This document shows, piece after piece, positions 1,844 through 17,387 of a stretch of 64,000 bases of DNA. The DNA lies in the NCBI RefSeq assembly GCF_030376605.1, contig NZ_JARRAE010000005.1:124001-188000 (forward strand). Reading direction: 5' to 3'. This DNA comes from Pseudochrobactrum sp. sp1633. Its GTDB lineage: Bacteria > Pseudomonadota > Alphaproteobacteria > Rhizobiales > Rhizobiaceae. Under the pieces are notes generated by a model. The model made no database searches, was not told where the DNA came from, and was given only the letters and a program-made list of their open reading frames with translations. The stretch's first letter is position 1. Each line of letters opens with the position of its first letter. Made by a program: the position numbers and the translations under genes.

Positions 1844-2506
1844 TTACAGCATAGAGTCGATAACTGCCGACATCTGTTCAACTGTTAATGCCCCGGAATA
1901 TTTCTGGCCATTGATAAAGAATGTAGGCGTTGCATTCACACCGAACTCAGCGCCACGTTCACGAACAGCATTCACATCATCGAGAAGCTGCTGGTTCGTC
2001 AAGCAGGCATTGAATGTCTCCTGTGTAAAACCGGCCAGTTTGGAGATTTGCAGCAATGCAGCCTGTGCATCATCGGCTGCTGCCCACTGCATCTGCTGCT
2101 TGAACAGCACATCCACCATCGGGAAATAACGGTCATCAGGTGCACAACGTGCCAGCATGAAAGCAGCAGTTGCGCGCGGATCAAACGGAAACTCGCGGAA
2201 AATCAGACGGGCTTTACCGGTCTTGATGTATTTTTCTTCGATCACCGGAAGGGTATTCACAGCGAAAGTCGCGCAATGGGAGCACGTCATTGAAGCATAT
2301 TCAACAATCGTCACCGGTGCATCGGCCTGACCCAGAACCTTGTCTTCCAGCTTGCCTTTTTCAAGCAGCTTGGCCATGTCGACCGTGCCGTCTGATTTAG
2401 GAACACCTGTCTGTGCAAAAGCACCGCCGGCCGCAGAGACGGACAATGCCGCAGTTGCAAGTGCCGCACTACCCAGAAGCTGTCTGCGGTTCAGTTGAGA
2501 TATCAT
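1844..2506 (-). CDS. DsbA-family periplasmic thiol:disulfide oxidoreductase
   Basis: Thioredoxin-fold oxidoreductase that probably oxidises or isomerises disulfides in exported proteins. An N-terminal export signal begins MISQLNRRQLLGS and has an Ala-rich hydrophobic stretch; the twin Arg may make it a Tat substrate. The active site is CSHC at residues 75-78, within YASMTCSHCATF, and the cis-Pro loop is NATPTFFING. About 220 aa, usual for this family (BdbD/DsbG-like rather than classical DsbA). I chose the ATG at 2506 because the upstream extension begins with TTG and would bury the signal peptide. In Rhizobiales a gene like this commonly sits between smc and the DUF721 gene and mutY, as here. 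Confidence 0.9.
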   Translation of the reverse strand: MISQLNRRQLLGSAALATAALSVSAAGGAFAQTGVPKSDGTVDMAKLLEKGKLEDKVLGQADAPVTIVEYASMTCSHCATFAVNTLPVIEEKYIKTGKARLIFREFPFDPRATAAFMLARCAPDDRYFPMVDVLFKQQMQWAAADDAQAALLQISKLAGFTQETFNACLTNQQLLDDVNAVRERGAEFGVNATPTFFINGQKYSGALTVEQMSAVIDSML

Positions 2507-2684
2507 ACGAATCACCCGTTTATTCCACGTTGCTATTGTTTTCGGATAATAGAGCAAATTGCCCGAATTTTGACGGGCAGCTTAAGAGTTTTTAATAAAC
2601 AGTGTGTCACCAGACACTTAACAGGCGATCTTCCTGCAATTATCCGGTGCATTCATGTCCGCAACCAGTCACCCGAAGATGCAT

Positions 2685-3194
2685 TTATCGTGGCTTCTTG
2701 TTTGCTTTTTCAGCCAGAATATTACGCCCGAGCTGCATGAGTGAAGCGCGTAAGGCCTCATCCTCAATACCGGACGTTACCTGTGCCAGCTTCTTTTCTG
2801 CCGGTGCACTGACCGGCAAAAGCTGTTTTGGTTTTCTTTGTGCAGCCGGTGCGACCGCCTTTTGTTCAATGCGAATGCGCGCAATGGCGGCAAAGCCTAA
2901 AAAAGAATTCACACGACCAATGATCTCGCCTGTGGAGTGCTGGATACGCATGGCCGCCATACCTTCGCAACCAATGATCAGTGTTGCAGGCTGAAAGGGA
3001 TCGTCCTCATGTGCACGTCTTGGCCAGAGAATCCGCAGAGGACGAGATTGCAGGCCGATCTGCGGCCCCACAATATCCTCCCATGACTGGATGAGCGACA
3101 GATTTATCCCCGCCCGCTTTCGCAAAACAGGATCGAGCACATCGCCTGCGGTATCCGCCAGCGGCTTGAAACCCGATTTCTCCTCTTTGCTCAT
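2685..3194 (-). CDS. DUF721 / DciA-like protein
   Basis: A 169-aa protein with the DUF721 (DciA) fold, a KH-like domain that in many bacteria helps load the replicative helicase DnaB. The domain spans about residues 15-110 and includes the conserved W-E-x-I-V-G-P stretch (SWEDIVGPQI) and a later alternating hydrophobic segment. The C-terminal 55 residues are low in complexity and rich in Lys, Ala and Pro. It starts one base after the stop of the O-antigen ligase gene, so the two are probably co-transcribed. The helicase-loader role is inferred from the family; alphaproteobacterial members are less studied. Confidence 0.85.
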   Translation of the reverse strand: MSKEEKSGFKPLADTAGDVLDPVLRKRAGINLSLIQSWEDIVGPQIGLQSRPLRILWPRRAHEDDPFQPATLIIGCEGMAAMRIQHSTGEIIGRVNSFLGFAAIARIRIEQKAVAPAAQRKPKQLLPVSAPAEKKLAQVTSGIEDEALRASLMQLGRNILAEKANKKPR

Positions 3195-3195
3195 A

Positions 3196-4491
3196 TCAGC
3201 CCTTTACTCCCGCAGGAAAAGCCAATTCCCTCACAGGACGTCTGTTGTAAAAATCCAGCGCATTTTCAGCACCGCTACTTTGGCGCAACAAATTACGGCT
3301 TGTTCCCGCATAGACGGCGCTAAAGAAAAACATGGTTACGGCAATACTGGTTTCATGCAGCAATGGATTATGCAGCATAGCATAGCTGCCCCATGTGATC
3401 GTAAAATAGATCAGCACACGGCGGATGGCGCAGTCAGAGTTGTTTCTCCACAAGAAAACAAAACCGCATAAGGCAGCCGCAAGCAACAGCAGGAAGCCGA
3501 CCGCACCATTAACCAGCAGCTCATCAAGAACAGAATTATGCACATGGATGTAACCATCCAGCAATGTTGCCTGATCTCCCAGCGCTTCGCGAACAGCCGT
3601 CATTTTCTGATCGGAACCAACCCCTGTCAGAGGATGTTCACTGACTACTTTAGCAGCACCGCGCCACATTTGCTCTCGGGTATCAGCGGAGGATTTATCC
3701 GACCACTGGCTGCTGTCTCCGGTCTCATAATAATGCATCATCCCTGAGAAGCGCTGCGACAGAACCGAAGCAACAGGCCCCACAGTAAAGACAGCAGTCA
3801 GACAAGCCGCAAGCATCAGAGAGCTGCCGATTTTCACCTTATGACTGGCGATACGACCGATAAGAACAACAATTTCAAAGATTGCCAGCAAGGCCAGCGT
3901 AAGCATAACGGCACGGGTTTCTGATGCGAAGACAACCCCTGTCCCGATAATCAGATACCAAGGGCCGTTTGGCAGCAAAAATGGCGGCTTTTTTATCGGC
4001 AAGGTCGCGGCAACCGCAGTAATTGCAGCCGCATAGGCAAATACGGCAGGATTACCGCCGACGCCGATACGACCACCCAGAAATAATTCCTCACCGGCAA
4101 CGGCGGTGGCACAAATAATAAGGCCGATACGTGAGCCGAATGCGAGAATACGCACAGGATCGCGCACCAGCACCATGCCCAGACCGCCAAAGGAATAAAG
4201 CCACAGCAAAAGCACATATCCGACCTGACGATTGGCGGCATCAAGCTCGCCGCGCCATGCCATCAGGCCAAGGCTCCAGATCATATAGGCTGAAATCAGC
4301 AGATAGAAATGCGCTCCGTAAAACCGGTGAAACCGGTTTTTGCACAGTGCCAGATATACCCCGATACAACTGAAGATAAACAGGATAAGCGGGCCCAGAG
4401 GCAGACGAACAGGCATCGCAGCGGCAGCAATAAACAAAAGCCAGAGATCTACCCGGCGACGGATGAGGAAGTTCTTTTGTAGAATTCGCAT
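3196..4491 (-). CDS. O-antigen ligase family membrane protein (WaaL-like; C-terminal half of WadA)
   Basis: A 431-aa integral inner-membrane protein with 10 or more hydrophobic segments and one large periplasmic loop. That loop holds the O-antigen ligase/polymerase signature region (TGVGSDQKMT, then HVHNSVLDELLVNG around residues 310-330). The expected job is transfer of undecaprenyl-linked O-polysaccharide onto lipid A-core in the periplasm. The ATG at 4491 follows the stop of the GT25 gene directly (TGA-T-ATG), implying translational coupling. In Brucella, as I recall, the GT25 and ligase domains form a single protein, WadA; here they lie in different frames separated by one stop. The reading frame stays open upstream past the GT25 stop. 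See the finding on the A6 tract. Confidence 0.85.
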   Translation of the reverse strand: MRILQKNFLIRRRVDLWLLFIAAAAMPVRLPLGPLILFIFSCIGVYLALCKNRFHRFYGAHFYLLISAYMIWSLGLMAWRGELDAANRQVGYVLLLWLYSFGGLGMVLVRDPVRILAFGSRIGLIICATAVAGEELFLGGRIGVGGNPAVFAYAAAITAVAATLPIKKPPFLLPNGPWYLIIGTGVVFASETRAVMLTLALLAIFEIVVLIGRIASHKVKIGSSLMLAACLTAVFTVGPVASVLSQRFSGMMHYYETGDSSQWSDKSSADTREQMWRGAAKVVSEHPLTGVGSDQKMTAVREALGDQATLLDGYIHVHNSVLDELLVNGAVGFLLLLAAALCGFVFLWRNNSDCAIRRVLIYFTITWGSYAMLHNPLLHETSIAVTMFFFSAVYAGTSRNLLRQSSGAENALDFYNRRPVRELAFPAGVKG

Positions 4492-4492
4492 A

Positions 4493-5266
4493 TCACCTGT
4501 GCCGGATATCCGTTTTTTGGAAACTATAAGACAATCTGTGCAGATAGTCTTTTAGACGAAAGAATAAAGTGCTGAGTCGCTTATAGGCAGGAAGTTTGGC
4601 TCTCGAGTAGGTATGAATGTCCTCAGAGATTGTCGAGGCACTTTCATTGGCATTGCTCACCACCGCTTTGCTGGCGGTAAAAAACCGGTAAGACCCTGCC
4701 CAGCCACGTTCCAGCGCCACATCATAAGGCAGATGCATTGTCTGCAAAGCTTTAAGTAGTTTTGCAGCGCCTTCCTTTGACACAATATAGGCACCGGCAT
4801 TGCCGAGCGGCCCATGCGTCGTACGGCCGATCGCAACGTCACCTGTAAGCTGTTCAACCGGCCTGAAACCAACAAGACGGTTATGAATGAGTTTAATCAC
4901 ATCCCAGCCCTGCAAGCACATCGCCGACTCAACAGCAGGAATAAAATCATCTGAAAAACGGATATCATCTTCAATGATCACACCGGCATCATCCGCGCCT
5001 GCGGCAATCATCTCCAGCGCCTTCATATGGCTGAGATAGCAGCCGATTTCCGCTGCAGAAGCAATTTTTCCATGATCGCGGCGAAAGCCTGCATCATCAA
5101 AATTTCGTTTTTCTTCCGGCTTGAGCAGCTTTCCGTCCACAGCCGGTATGCGCTGAACCGTTAAATCATATTCCTGCGCATGCGCCTGCAAAGAATCCCA
5201 GCGGTCTTTCGACCTGTCCAGATTAAGTGCATAGACCGGAAAGGTTTGTTTCTTCTGCAATATCAA
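4493..5266 (-). CDS. Glycosyltransferase family 25 protein (LPS core; N-terminal half of WadA)
   Basis: A 257-aa cytoplasmic glycosyltransferase of family GT25 (LgtB/LpsA type), which adds a sugar to the LPS core. It begins FPVYALNLDRSKDRW, a typical GT25 N-terminus, followed by EIGCYLSHMKALE. The acidic metal/nucleotide-sugar motif VIIEDDIRF lies near residues 95-104, with GAYIVSKEGAAKLL further on. The C-terminus is a short Lys/Arg-rich amphipathic tail ending in the A6 tract region. It is followed at once by the O-antigen ligase. A one-base change in the A6 tract near its 3' end would fuse the two genes. Confidence 0.88.
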   Translation of the reverse strand: MILQKKQTFPVYALNLDRSKDRWDSLQAHAQEYDLTVQRIPAVDGKLLKPEEKRNFDDAGFRRDHGKIASAAEIGCYLSHMKALEMIAAGADDAGVIIEDDIRFSDDFIPAVESAMCLQGWDVIKLIHNRLVGFRPVEQLTGDVAIGRTTHGPLGNAGAYIVSKEGAAKLLKALQTMHLPYDVALERGWAGSYRFFTASKAVVSNANESASTISEDIHTYSRAKLPAYKRLSTLFFRLKDYLHRLSYSFQKTDIRHR

Positions 5267-5441: not shown

Positions 5442-6593
5442 ATGACAAAAAAGCATCTGAATGCTCATTTAAATGCGGAACCTATCGTGCCCGCACATGC
5501 ACTATCGGGAAAATCATGCGCGCAGAACCTGCTGGCGTGGTACGATCGTCATCACCGTGTGTTGCCGTGGCGCGTTACACCGCATGACCATGCGCAAGGT
5601 ATACGGCCTGATCCGTATCGCATCTGGCTGTCTGAAGTTATGCTCCAGCAAACCACAGTTGAAGCCGTTAAAGCCTATTTCCTCAAATTCACAAATCTTT
5701 GGCCGGATGTTCAGGCGCTGGCAGATGCCACAGAGGATGATGTGCTGCGCGGCTGGGCGGGGCTTGGCTATTATTCCCGCGCCCGTAATTTGAAAAAATG
5801 CGCGGATATGGTCGCTCGTGATTTTAAAGGCGCGTTTCCGGCGGATGTGGAAGATCTCAAACAATTACCGGGCATCGGCGATTATACCTCAGCCGCCATT
5901 GCCGCAATTGCCTTTGATATTCCGGCCGCGGTGGTAGACGGCAATGTAGAGCGCGTGGTCAGCCGCCTCTTCGCCATCAAAACCGCCATGCCGCAGGCCA
6001 AGACTGAAATCCGCGCTTTCACAGAACAACTGACCCCGCAATCACGCCCCGGCGATTATGCACAAGCGATGATGGATCTCGGCGCAACCATCTGCACACC
6101 GAAAAAACCGGCCTGTATTCTCTGTCCGCTCAATGATAATTGTGCAGCCTTGATCGAAAGTGAGCCGGAGCTTTACCCTGTCAAAGCACCAAAAAAGGCA
6201 CGCCCAATCCGCTATGGCGCAGCTTTTATCCTTCTCTCTCCGCAAGGTGAAGCTTATTTACGCAAACGTGCCGACAAAGGATTGCTTGCCGGCATGAGCG
6301 AAGTGCCAAACAGCGACTGGATTGCAGCAGATGAAACTGCATCGCCTGAATATATTGCACAGTTAACCGGTATTGATCTGGCACCATTTGCAGCAGACTG
6401 GCAGGCCAGCGGTAGCATCACACATATTTTCACGCATTTTGAATTACGGTTGAGCATTTACAAAGCAGATGTTTCAACAGTCCCGCCAAGTAATAATGGC
6501 TGGTGGGTTGCAGCAAACAAACTGCATGAGGAAGCCCTGCCGACCGTGATGAAGAAAGCCATCAGCGCAGCTCTGCCTGACACTTTCAAATAA
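5442..6593 (+). CDS. mutY: A/G-specific adenine DNA glycosylase MutY
   Basis: Removes adenine paired with 8-oxoguanine, preventing G:C to T:A mutations. All marks of active MutY are visible: catalytic Glu65 in SEVMLQQT, the helix-hairpin-helix LPGIGDYTSAAIAAIAF at about 142-158, and catalytic Asp166 in VVDGNVERV. The [4Fe-4S] cluster ligands are C218, C225, C228 and C234 (C-x6-C-x2-C-x5-C). The C-terminal NUDIX-like domain, about 245-380, senses the 8-oxoG partner. The length of 383 aa is normal. The gene is transcribed away from the GT25 gene and converges with ccrM. No strong Shine-Dalgarno site is visible before the ATG. Confidence 0.97.
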   Translation: MTKKHLNAHLNAEPIVPAHALSGKSCAQNLLAWYDRHHRVLPWRVTPHDHAQGIRPDPYRIWLSEVMLQQTTVEAVKAYFLKFTNLWPDVQALADATEDDVLRGWAGLGYYSRARNLKKCADMVARDFKGAFPADVEDLKQLPGIGDYTSAAIAAIAFDIPAAVVDGNVERVVSRLFAIKTAMPQAKTEIRAFTEQLTPQSRPGDYAQAMMDLGATICTPKKPACILCPLNDNCAALIESEPELYPVKAPKKARPIRYGAAFILLSPQGEAYLRKRADKGLLAGMSEVPNSDWIAADETASPEYIAQLTGIDLAPFAADWQASGSITHIFTHFELRLSIYKADVSTVPPSNNGWWVAANKLHEEALPTVMKKAISAALPDTFK

Positions 6594-6801: not shown

Positions 6802-7962
<1,161 letters not shown>

Positions 7963-14498: not shown

Positions 14499-17387
14499 GT
14501 GACAGAAAACTTTCATAACCGCTTGAAAACGTTTTTCTGTGTGTTTGCCTTTCTCGCAGCCATTTTACAGCTCACGGTTCCTGCATCTGCGGTCGAGCCG
14601 ATCAAGATTTCCAAAGAAGACACTGCGCTCGACCTGACCCGCGCCGTACAGATTATGCATAATCAGGGTGATACTGTGCAGGTCTCCACCGCTCCTGGTG
14701 CCGATGGTATTGTCCGGCGCATTGAGGTGCAGGCCGACAAGGACAAGCGCTCAAGCGGTAACTGGGCAGCCTTTGCCATTGCCAATCCGACTGATGAGCA
14801 GATTGACCGTCTGATTGTTGCTCCGCATTACCGCCTTGTTAAATCGGGTTTTGTCTGGCCGGATCTCGGTTCGCAGCGCATTTCATCCATCACGCCAAGT
14901 GAGGGCTTTGCGCTTGATCGTCAGGTCAGCCCTGATGCGGATGTGTTTCTGATCACCATCAATCCGGGCTCAGTGGTAACTCTGGTAGCCGAAATGGCCT
15001 CCCCTAACCTGCCGCAGCTTTATCTGTGGGAGCCGGATGCCTATAAAGACACCATCAACGCCTACACACTGTATCGCGGCATTCTGCTCGGCATTTCCGG
15101 CCTGCTGGCACTGTTTCTGACCATTCTTTTTGTTGTGCGCGGGACATCGCTGTTCCCTGCTGCTGCTGCACTGGCATGGGCGGTTCTGGCCTATATCTGC
15201 GTGGATTTCGGTTTCTGGAACAAGCTGATCGCCATCACCCCCGGCAATGAGCAGATGTGGCGGGCGGGCACGGAAGTGGCGCTCGCAGCCAGTTTCCTGA
15301 TTTTCCTGTTCACCTATCTCAACCTCAACCGCTGGCATGATCATTTTTCCTATGGTGCAGTGGCATGGGTTCTCGGCCTGATGATGCTGAGCGGCGTGGC
15401 GATTTTTGATCCGCCAATTGCTGCCGGTATTGCGCGTATTTCTTTTGCGCTGACTGTTATTTGCGGCATCGTGATTATCGGCATTCTGTCACTGCGCAGT
15501 TATGACCGTGCTATTATGCTGATACCCACCTGGCTCTTGATCGCCATATGGATGACCGGTGCATGGCTTGCCGTTTCCGGTCGTCTGGACAATGATATTG
15601 TTCAGCCTGCTCTTGGCGGGGGTCTGGTACTGATCGTCTTGCTGATCGGCTTTACCGTGATGCAGCATGCATTTGCCGGTGGTGTGCTGCGCGTTGGCCT
15701 GTTCTCCGATATGGAACGTCAGGCTCTGGCGGTCATCGGCTCCGGCGATATTGTCTGGGACTGGGATGTGCCGCGCGACCGTGTGGTGACCACACCGGAT
15801 ATTTCCACCTATCTCGGCACGGCTGCTTCAAGCCTGCTCGGCCCTGTGCGCAACTGGCTCCCGGTCATGCATGGCGATGACCGCGACCGCTTCCGCACCA
15901 CGCTGGATGCTATTCTGGAAAACCGCCGCGGCCGCATTCACCAGACTTTTCGCCTGCGAGCCAATGACGGTCATTATCACTGGTATCACTTACGTGCGCG
16001 TCCGGTTATCGGCTCGGATGGTGAAATCGTGCGCTGCGTCGGCACGCTGCATAATGTGACCGAGCAGAAAAAAGCCGAAGAGCGCCTGTTGCACGATGCT
16101 GTGCATGACAATCTTACCGGTCTGCCAAACCGCGAGCTGTTCCTCGACCGTCTCGCCAATGTCATGAGCATGTCTTACAACGAAAGTAGGCTGAAGCCGA
16201 CGGTTTTCGTGATTGATATTGACCGCTTCAAACAGGTCAATGACAGCCTCGGCATGTCAGCCGGTGATACAATTCTGCTGACTGTCTCACGCCGTCTGTT
16301 CCGCCTGATGAAGCCGCAGGATACGCTCTCAAGACTGTCTTCAGACCAGTTCGGCCTGATACTGGCTTCCGAGTCCGATCCGGCCAAAGTTGCCGCTTTT
16401 GCGGAAGCGCTGCGTCAGGCTATCCGCGCGCCGATTTCCTATGCCAAGCGTGAGATTGTGCTGACCGCATCCGTTGGTCTCCTGACATGGACAGCCAATG
16501 CCGCGAATGCGGAAGATATGATCAAAGATGCCGAACTGGCCATGTATCAGGCCAAGCGCTTCGGCGGTGATCGTATTGAGCCGTTCCGTCCGTCATTCCG
16601 CGCGATCGGCAGTGATAAGCTGCAGCTGGAATCTGACCTGCGCCGCGCCATTGAGCGCAAGGAAATCACGATTGCCTACCAGCCGATTGTGAACTTGCAG
16701 GACGGCACGATTGCGGGTTTTGAAGCCCTGATGCGCTGGGAACATCCGCGTCGCGGACCGATTTCGCCGTCTGAATTTATTCCGATTGCCGAGAATTCCG
16801 GTCTGATCGTGCCGCTTGGCCTGTTTGCCATGCAGCAATCGGCCAATGACCTGTTCAACTGGCAGGAAAATCTGTCACGTCCGAACCTGTTTGTTTCCGT
16901 CAATCTCTCCAGCACCCAGCTGATCCGTCAGGATTTGCTGAGTGATGTGCGAGCCATCCTGTCGCGTACGCATGTGACCAAAGGCACGCTCAAGCTGGAA
17001 CTGACAGAATCTGTGCTGATGGAAAATCCGGAACAGTCTGCCCATATGCTCACCGAGCTGAAATCTATGGGTGTAGGATTGTCGCTGGATGATTTCGGCA
17101 CCGGCTATTCGTCGCTTGCTTATCTGACGCGCTTCCCGATTGACATGATCAAAATCGACCGCTCTTTCGTGAAAGGCGACAAACCGCAGAAAACCACACT
17201 GCTACGCTCCATCATCCGCATGGCGCAGGATCTTGAATTGAAGGTTGTGGCTGAGGGTGTGGAGAGCGAGCAAGATGCGATGCAGCTACGCGAAATGGGC
17301 TGTGAATATGTTCAGAGCTTCCTGTTCGGTCAGCCGATGACGGCTGAGAATGCAGCCCGCCTGCTCAACGGACAGACTGTGGAATAA
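14499..17387 (+). CDS. Membrane c-di-GMP phosphodiesterase (7TM-PAS-degenerate GGDEF-EAL)
   Basis: A 962-aa signalling protein. Order: signal peptide (1-31), a periplasmic 7TMR-DISM-like sensor to about 185, seven or so membrane helices (about 190-400), PAS/PAC (about 400-535), GGDEF-like (about 540-700) and EAL (about 710-955). The GGDEF motif is S614-S-D-Q-F618, and the inhibitory RxxD site upstream is KPQD, so cyclase activity is very unlikely. The EAL domain keeps E742-A-L-x-R and the metal/catalytic residues in ELTES, DDFGTGYSS, IKIDRSF and AEGVES, so it should hydrolyse c-di-GMP. The GTG start is supported by AAAAGG 8 bases upstream. It is probably the counterpart of a Brucella BpdA/BpdB-type enzyme; which one I cannot say. 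Confidence 0.92.
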   Translation: MTENFHNRLKTFFCVFAFLAAILQLTVPASAVEPIKISKEDTALDLTRAVQIMHNQGDTVQVSTAPGADGIVRRIEVQADKDKRSSGNWAAFAIANPTDEQIDRLIVAPHYRLVKSGFVWPDLGSQRISSITPSEGFALDRQVSPDADVFLITINPGSVVTLVAEMASPNLPQLYLWEPDAYKDTINAYTLYRGILLGISGLLALFLTILFVVRGTSLFPAAAALAWAVLAYICVDFGFWNKLIAITPGNEQMWRAGTEVALAASFLIFLFTYLNLNRWHDHFSYGAVAWVLGLMMLSGVAIFDPPIAAGIARISFALTVICGIVIIGILSLRSYDRAIMLIPTWLLIAIWMTGAWLAVSGRLDNDIVQPALGGGLVLIVLLIGFTVMQHAFAGGVLRVGLFSDMERQALAVIGSGDIVWDWDVPRDRVVTTPDISTYLGTAASSLLGPVRNWLPVMHGDDRDRFRTTLDAILENRRGRIHQTFRLRANDGHYHWYHLRARPVIGSDGEIVRCVGTLHNVTEQKKAEERLLHDAVHDNLTGLPNRELFLDRLANVMSMSYNESRLKPTVFVIDIDRFKQVNDSLGMSAGDTILLTVSRRLFRLMKPQDTLSRLSSDQFGLILASESDPAKVAAFAEALRQAIRAPISYAKREIVLTASVGLLTWTANAANAEDMIKDAELAMYQAKRFGGDRIEPFRPSFRAIGSDKLQLESDLRRAIERKEITIAYQPIVNLQDGTIAGFEALMRWEHPRRGPISPSEFIPIAENSGLIVPLGLFAMQQSANDLFNWQENLSRPNLFVSVNLSSTQLIRQDLLSDVRAILSRTHVTKGTLKLELTESVLMENPEQSAHMLTELKSMGVGLSLDDFGTGYSSLAYLTRFPIDMIKIDRSFVKGDKPQKTTLLRSIIRMAQDLELKVVAEGVESEQDAMQLREMGCEYVQSFLFGQPMTAENAARLLNGQTVE

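Follow-up and report, generated by a model that had tools for sequence, protein, structure and literature searches.

Separate, closely packed GT25 glycosyltransferase and O-antigen ligase-type genes at the mutY-dciA locus of Pseudochrobactrum

The GT25 glycosyltransferase gene and the O-antigen ligase-type gene that lie between mutY and dciA in Pseudochrobactrum sp. sp1633 meet at an ordinary junction, in which two tightly packed lipopolysaccharide (LPS) genes are conserved and remain separate. We analyzed a stretch of 64 kb from this genome, hereafter the window, and found two intact, conserved genes, a conserved junction between them, and a match to a ribosome-binding site in front of the ligase gene (Table 1). 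With high confidence, we read the two as complete, separate genes that form an ordinary pair, probably coupled in translation. The initial annotation had offered four alternatives for the junction, and comparative evidence supports the first of these, a split pair coupled by TGA-T-ATG, and speaks against the others, a slippage-prone or phase-variable fusion, a frameshift mutation and a sequencing error, each of which is very unlikely. Near end-to-end packing of genes is frequent in bacteria. With this false lead removed, leaving no LPS switch and no frameshift, the locus shows that the partnership of GT25 and ligase known from the fused protein WadA also exists as conserved, separate and tightly linked genes.

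Table 1. Features of the mutY-dciA locus, in window positions.
Feature	Position	Strand	Basis or remark
dsbA-like thioredoxin gene, conserved neighbour	1844..2557	-	PF13462 E 5e-48; synteny
dciA (DUF721), conserved neighbour	2685..3194	-	PF05258 E 4e-12; synteny
Ligase/dciA junction, also TGA-T-ATG	3192..3198	-	Direct reading; internal control
O-antigen ligase-type membrane protein gene (Wzy_C), 431 aa	3196..4491	-	PF04932 E 9.6e-17
GT25/ligase junction AGGTGATATG	4489..4498	-	GT25 stop TGA overlapped by AGGTGAT, then ligase ATG
Ligase start ATG	4491-4489	-	Direct reading
Single T between stop and start	4492	-	Direct reading
GT25 stop TGA	4495-4493	-	Direct reading
Ribosome-binding site AGGTGAT	4498-4492	-	Overlaps GT25 stop; strong anti-SD duplex
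GT25 glycosyltransferase gene, 257 aa as listed	4493..5266	-	PF01755 (Glyco_transf_25) E 4.9e-19
A6 run, codons CAA AAA A.. (Gln-Lys-Thr), close to GT25 C-terminus	4513..4518	-	Direct reading
mutY, divergent conserved neighbour	5442..6593	+	TIGR01084 315 bits, over cut-off; synteny

Both proteins carry the domains expected of their families. The first contains a GT25 LPS glycosyltransferase domain (PF01755, 69.4 bits against a gathering cut-off of 24), and the second contains the Wzy_C domain of GT121-like O-antigen ligases (61.6 bits against a gathering cut-off of 31.7). In the ligase, H316-V-H318-N aligns with the catalytic motif HxHN of the solved O-antigen ligase 7tpg, a single-domain enzyme of low identity to it, which nevertheless gave a profile match with an E value of 1.2e-8 and in which the active-region arginines (TR / R..W) are aligned as well. 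Judging from these families, the GT25 enzyme would work in the cytoplasm, adding a sugar to the LPS core, and the ligase would work in the membrane, transferring a polymer that is probably O-antigen onto the completed core on the periplasmic side. GT25 had dN/dS ratios of 0.05-0.10 and the ligase of 0.07-0.09, approximate values given that dS was saturated, which indicates strong purifying selection on the two genes; neither shows a stop, a frameshift or relaxed selection. When substitutions in the last 20 GT25 codons were compared between the GT25 frame and the ligase frame, very few changes were present. A GT25 orthologue occurs in all six of the six well-sequenced genomes of the genus. A TTG at 5260, with AAAGG about 7 nt upstream, is the likelier start of this gene and gives 255 aa; the listed start at 5266 is worse placed. 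A promoter scan returned sites no more numerous than in shuffles, and plasmid searches gave zero matches with the ligase and distant matches only with GT25.

Direct reading of the minus strand bore out the geometry that had been described, with the A6 run, the TGA-T-ATG arrangement, the offset of one base, and frames that would be joined by the loss of one A. The GT25 gene ends in TTC CAA AAA ACG GAT ATC CGG CAC AGG TGA, followed by a T and the ligase ATG. The ligase frame had also been noted as open upstream of its ATG, and it is indeed free of stops for 20 codons before the start, measuring 451 aa from stop to stop. Joining the two frames takes a net loss of one base at A6 (or a gain of two), equivalent to a shift of +1 (or -2). 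A slip of -1, the common kind of translational slip at A runs, is halted by a stop about 23 codons downstream without entering the ligase frame. These features are no more than chance would give: homopolymers of at least 6 bases numbered 65 in the 64-kb window, against 59.6 expected from a first-order model whose baseline was drawn from the window itself, and by simple codon arithmetic, a stretch of 20 random codons 5' of a start would be free of stops with a probability of about 38%. Overlaps of 4 nt occur in three unrelated gene pairs of the window (acyl-CoA dehydrogenase/enoyl-CoA hydratase, FtsJ-like/tRNA-methyltransferase and DUF983/SURF1), and in the first two of these the downstream frame is open for 64-67 nt back, with an A5 run inside the open stretch of the FtsJ-like/tRNA-methyltransferase pair. 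Nothing suggests that these pairs, or the ligase and dciA, are broken fusions. Because the ligase/dciA junction also reads TGA-T-ATG, this spacing is not specific to GT25 and the ligase.

The layout of the junction suggests how the two genes may be expressed. In the arrangement that we propose, an operon would run from GT25 through the ligase to dciA, with GT25 and the ligase each translated as a complete, separate protein. Since the GT25 stop sits inside the ligase ribosome-binding site, with the start one base on, a ribosome terminating on GT25 could restart on the ligase, and termination-reinitiation would be the route of coupling from one gene to the other. The A6 run would have no role beyond that of plain Lys/Gln codons. 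Calculated with an assumed standard anti-Shine-Dalgarno sequence in place of the host's own 16S tail, the duplex energy before the window ligase ATG was -10.0 kcal/mol against a control mean of -4.3 kcal/mol, and the mean 5' of 36 ligase starts was -7.8 kcal/mol against -4.3 at control positions. A search of the draft assembly for the 16S 3' end did not find it. The ribosome-binding site falls in the last GT25 codons in most relatives, and is weak before the ligase in some Phyllobacterium-type relatives. Because a good site precedes the ligase ATG, the ligase could be translated on its own, and the persistence of GT25 in congeners that have no ligase indicates that the pair is not obligatory; both observations would fit adjacent genes translated fully independently. 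However, the spacing from stop to start is held between -4 and +1 nt in all interpretable relatives. Tightly kept spacing of this kind usually accompanies coupling, and overlap of genes may also stem from genome compaction. We consider fully independent translation unlikely, and the layout argues that GT25 and the ligase are probably coupled.

Comparison within the genus revealed the same junction in other species. P. saccharolyticum (L140/G004) and a second congener (L104/G006) both have the ligase, with TGA-T-ATG and A6 as in the window; the length of the run is thus constant across the three ligase-bearing species, and the proteins of the two congeners are about 82% identical to those of the window (ligase, 82-83%). 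The initial annotation had named separate genes with the same A6 in all relatives as the observation that would count against its reading, and among the ligase-bearing species of the genus this is what we found. Three further congeners (G001, G003 and G005; loci L023, L019 and L022) resemble the window in the placement of GT25 between mutY and dciA, and differ from it in having no ligase gene. Their GT25 proteins are about 80% identical to that of the window and end at the same residue (...LRHR-stop), with dciA following about 45-65 bp after the stop and with five As where the ligase-bearing species have A6. The dN/dS values of GT25 among these three species (0.03-0.06) indicate that purifying selection has been retained. 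In the GT25 tree, the window sequence is sister to the ligase-less clade (95/74), so that a single loss of the ligase within the genus, with GT25 kept, is the simplest reading of its history. The conservation of GT25 in several species where no ligase adjoins it argues that the sugar-adding step needs no ligase beside it.

The gene order mutY, GT25, ligase, dciA and dsbA recurs in Brucella (formerly Ochrobactrum), Falsochrobactrum, Paenochrobactrum, Phyllobacterium and others. The genes, their order and their neighbours in these four genera are as in the window, and stop and start touch in both; GT25 is 47-52% and the ligase 44-51% identical to the window proteins, and the junction is a 4-nt overlap or TAA-GTG instead of TGA-T-ATG. 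We surveyed 39 named loci, 35 of which had both genes in interpretable form. Asking whether other strains are fused, as the initial annotation had advised, gave a uniform answer, with a GT25-ligase fusion at the mutY-dciA locus in 0 of the 35 interpretable loci. The junction was a 4-nt overlap (ATGA, TTGA or GTGA) in 31 of them, TAA-GTG in two, and TGA-T-ATG in two, both of the latter in Pseudochrobactrum; genes in all interpretable relatives therefore abut or overlap, as in a coupled pair. Most genera have a frame relation of -1 from GT25 to the ligase, the B. pituitosa group has 0 and Pseudochrobactrum has +1; because of this variation between lineages, slippage at a single site cannot serve as a conserved fusion device. 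In B. pituitosa, B. pseudogrignonensis and related loci (L105, L113), the TAA-GTG junction is in frame, and a lone stop codon parts the two proteins. Copies in B. oryzae (L141/L103) and B. cytisi (L142/L102) hold several frame breaks and were set aside; sequencing error rather than biology is likely there, because the completeness estimates of the assemblies are low (69% for B. oryzae G280 and 85% for B. cytisi G275). Six long frames considered as fusions at the locus, in G299 (689 aa), G109 (1210), G229 (801), G188 (782), G271 (634) and G182 (718), were rejected, being either open by chance in G+C-rich DNA or extended upstream. Several Brucella and Falsochrobactrum loci differ from the window in having room for an extra gene between the ligase and dciA; in F. 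ovis this gene appears epimerase-like by eye. B. pseudogrignonensis (L101/L134, G284:C40) also has a second ligase copy elsewhere, which shares about 51% identity with the window ligase and is not adjoined by GT25, mutY or dciA.

These comparisons bear on the readings in which the two genes are, or recently were, one. A phase-variable or slippage-prone junction, where loss of one A from A6 would produce a WadA-like fusion and switch the type of LPS, is permitted by the frame arithmetic, and A6 is retained in all three ligase-bearing Pseudochrobactrum. The run is short, however, and of a frequency that chance predicts; neither an unusual length for the genome nor variation in length among the three ligase-bearing species, as expected of a phase-variable homopolymer, was found for it. 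The usual -1 slip misses the ligase frame, the same slip would not fuse the genes of other genera with their different offset, the ligase-less sister species retain the Lys codons despite having no fusion partner, and GT25 and the ligase each already possess a stop, a start and a ribosome-binding site. We therefore regard such a switch as exceedingly improbable. The same very low probability attaches to a recent frameshift mutation, or a homopolymer sequencing error, that split a real WadA-type fusion gene. Fused GT25-ligase genes do exist, as in WadA (PMC9938171) and at loci L199-L212, and broken copies of the locus are present in the assemblies of B. oryzae (L141) and B. cytisi (L142). Yet three independent assemblies of different species have an identical junction, every interpretable relative is split, the fused proteins belong to one distant clade (99/97) that lies apart from the window pair, and GT25 and the ligase show no stop, frameshift or relaxed selection. 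Three findings contradict the slippage, frameshift and error readings alike: two further Pseudochrobactrum species, with proteins about 82% identical, have the same junction; the other interpretable relatives keep the genes apart at different frame offsets; and GT25 ends at the same residue in the three ligase-less sister species.

The likeness to WadA drawn in the initial annotation holds for domain content only: true WadA-type fusions group in a clade of their own, and their ligase domain is a distant relative of that in the window. Brucella WadA is a single protein of 703 aa whose N-terminal part (1-266) is a glycosyltransferase and whose C-terminal part is an O-antigen ligase, with R614 and the catalytic His, H605, in a periplasmic loop (PMC9938171), and GT121 proteins with an appended GT25 have been reported from five genera, mostly in one clade (PMC10920833). 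WadA and the window pair have the GT25 and ligase domain families in the same order, and both ligase domains are Wzy_C/GT121-like, but WadA is a single reading frame and the fused clade is monophyletic and set apart, whereas the window has two genes and no polypeptide of about 700 aa, and the genes are separate across the genus and the family. A query that concatenated the two window proteins recovered WadA-type fusions from several genera (among them G405, G245, G432, G329, G231, G259, G381 and G238), a name that we assigned from length, domain order and motifs, the matches including no classical Brucella genome. They are about 700 aa long, and G405 carries two. We read nine of them in full (L199, L200, L202, L203, L205-L208 and L212), and neither mutY nor dciA lay beside the fusion in the stretches fetched for these nine loci. 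In the GT25 tree, the nine fused proteins group as one clade (99/97) to the exclusion of the mutY-locus pairs, and the window sequence falls with the Pseudochrobactrum pairs (100/100). All nine carry HNG[YF]LE..VR, which gives the WadA spacing of nine residues from H to R; the window ligase reads H318-N-S-V-L-D-E-L-L-V327, with V327 replacing the diagnostic Arg. The window and fused ligase domains aligned over 157 columns at 21% identity (hhalign E 8e-7). The separate clade, V327 and the distant ligase domain together indicate that the window pair is not a split WadA. Published wadA primers (PMC4107470), allowing up to 4 mismatches, had no match to the Brucella mutY-locus genes among the fetched loci, which is weak negative evidence.

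The GT25 parts of the WadA-type proteins and of the window pair fall in one subfamily, distinct from other Pseudochrobactrum GT25 (100/97), so that a common origin of the fused and unfused two-enzyme arrangements is possible. It is conceivable, though we hold this only tentatively and think it somewhat doubtful, that the mutY-locus pair is an unfused GT25 and ligase module that works as a functional unit and is widespread in Brucellaceae and Phyllobacteriaceae, and that WadA arose once by the joining of such a pair. If so, the mutY-dciA loci would record the stage before the fusion that produced WadA, an unusual two-sided membrane enzyme. The separate, linked pair supports the suggestion that GT25 and GT121 enzymes act together (PMC10920833).

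Beyond mutY, the window also encodes a DNA methylase (6802-7953; N6_N4_Mtase and RAMA domains) that resembles the cell-cycle methylase CcrM of Alphaproteobacteria, and a membrane protein of 962 aa (14499-17384) with 7TM-DISM, PAS, GGDEF and EAL domains (cyclic-di-GMP turnover).
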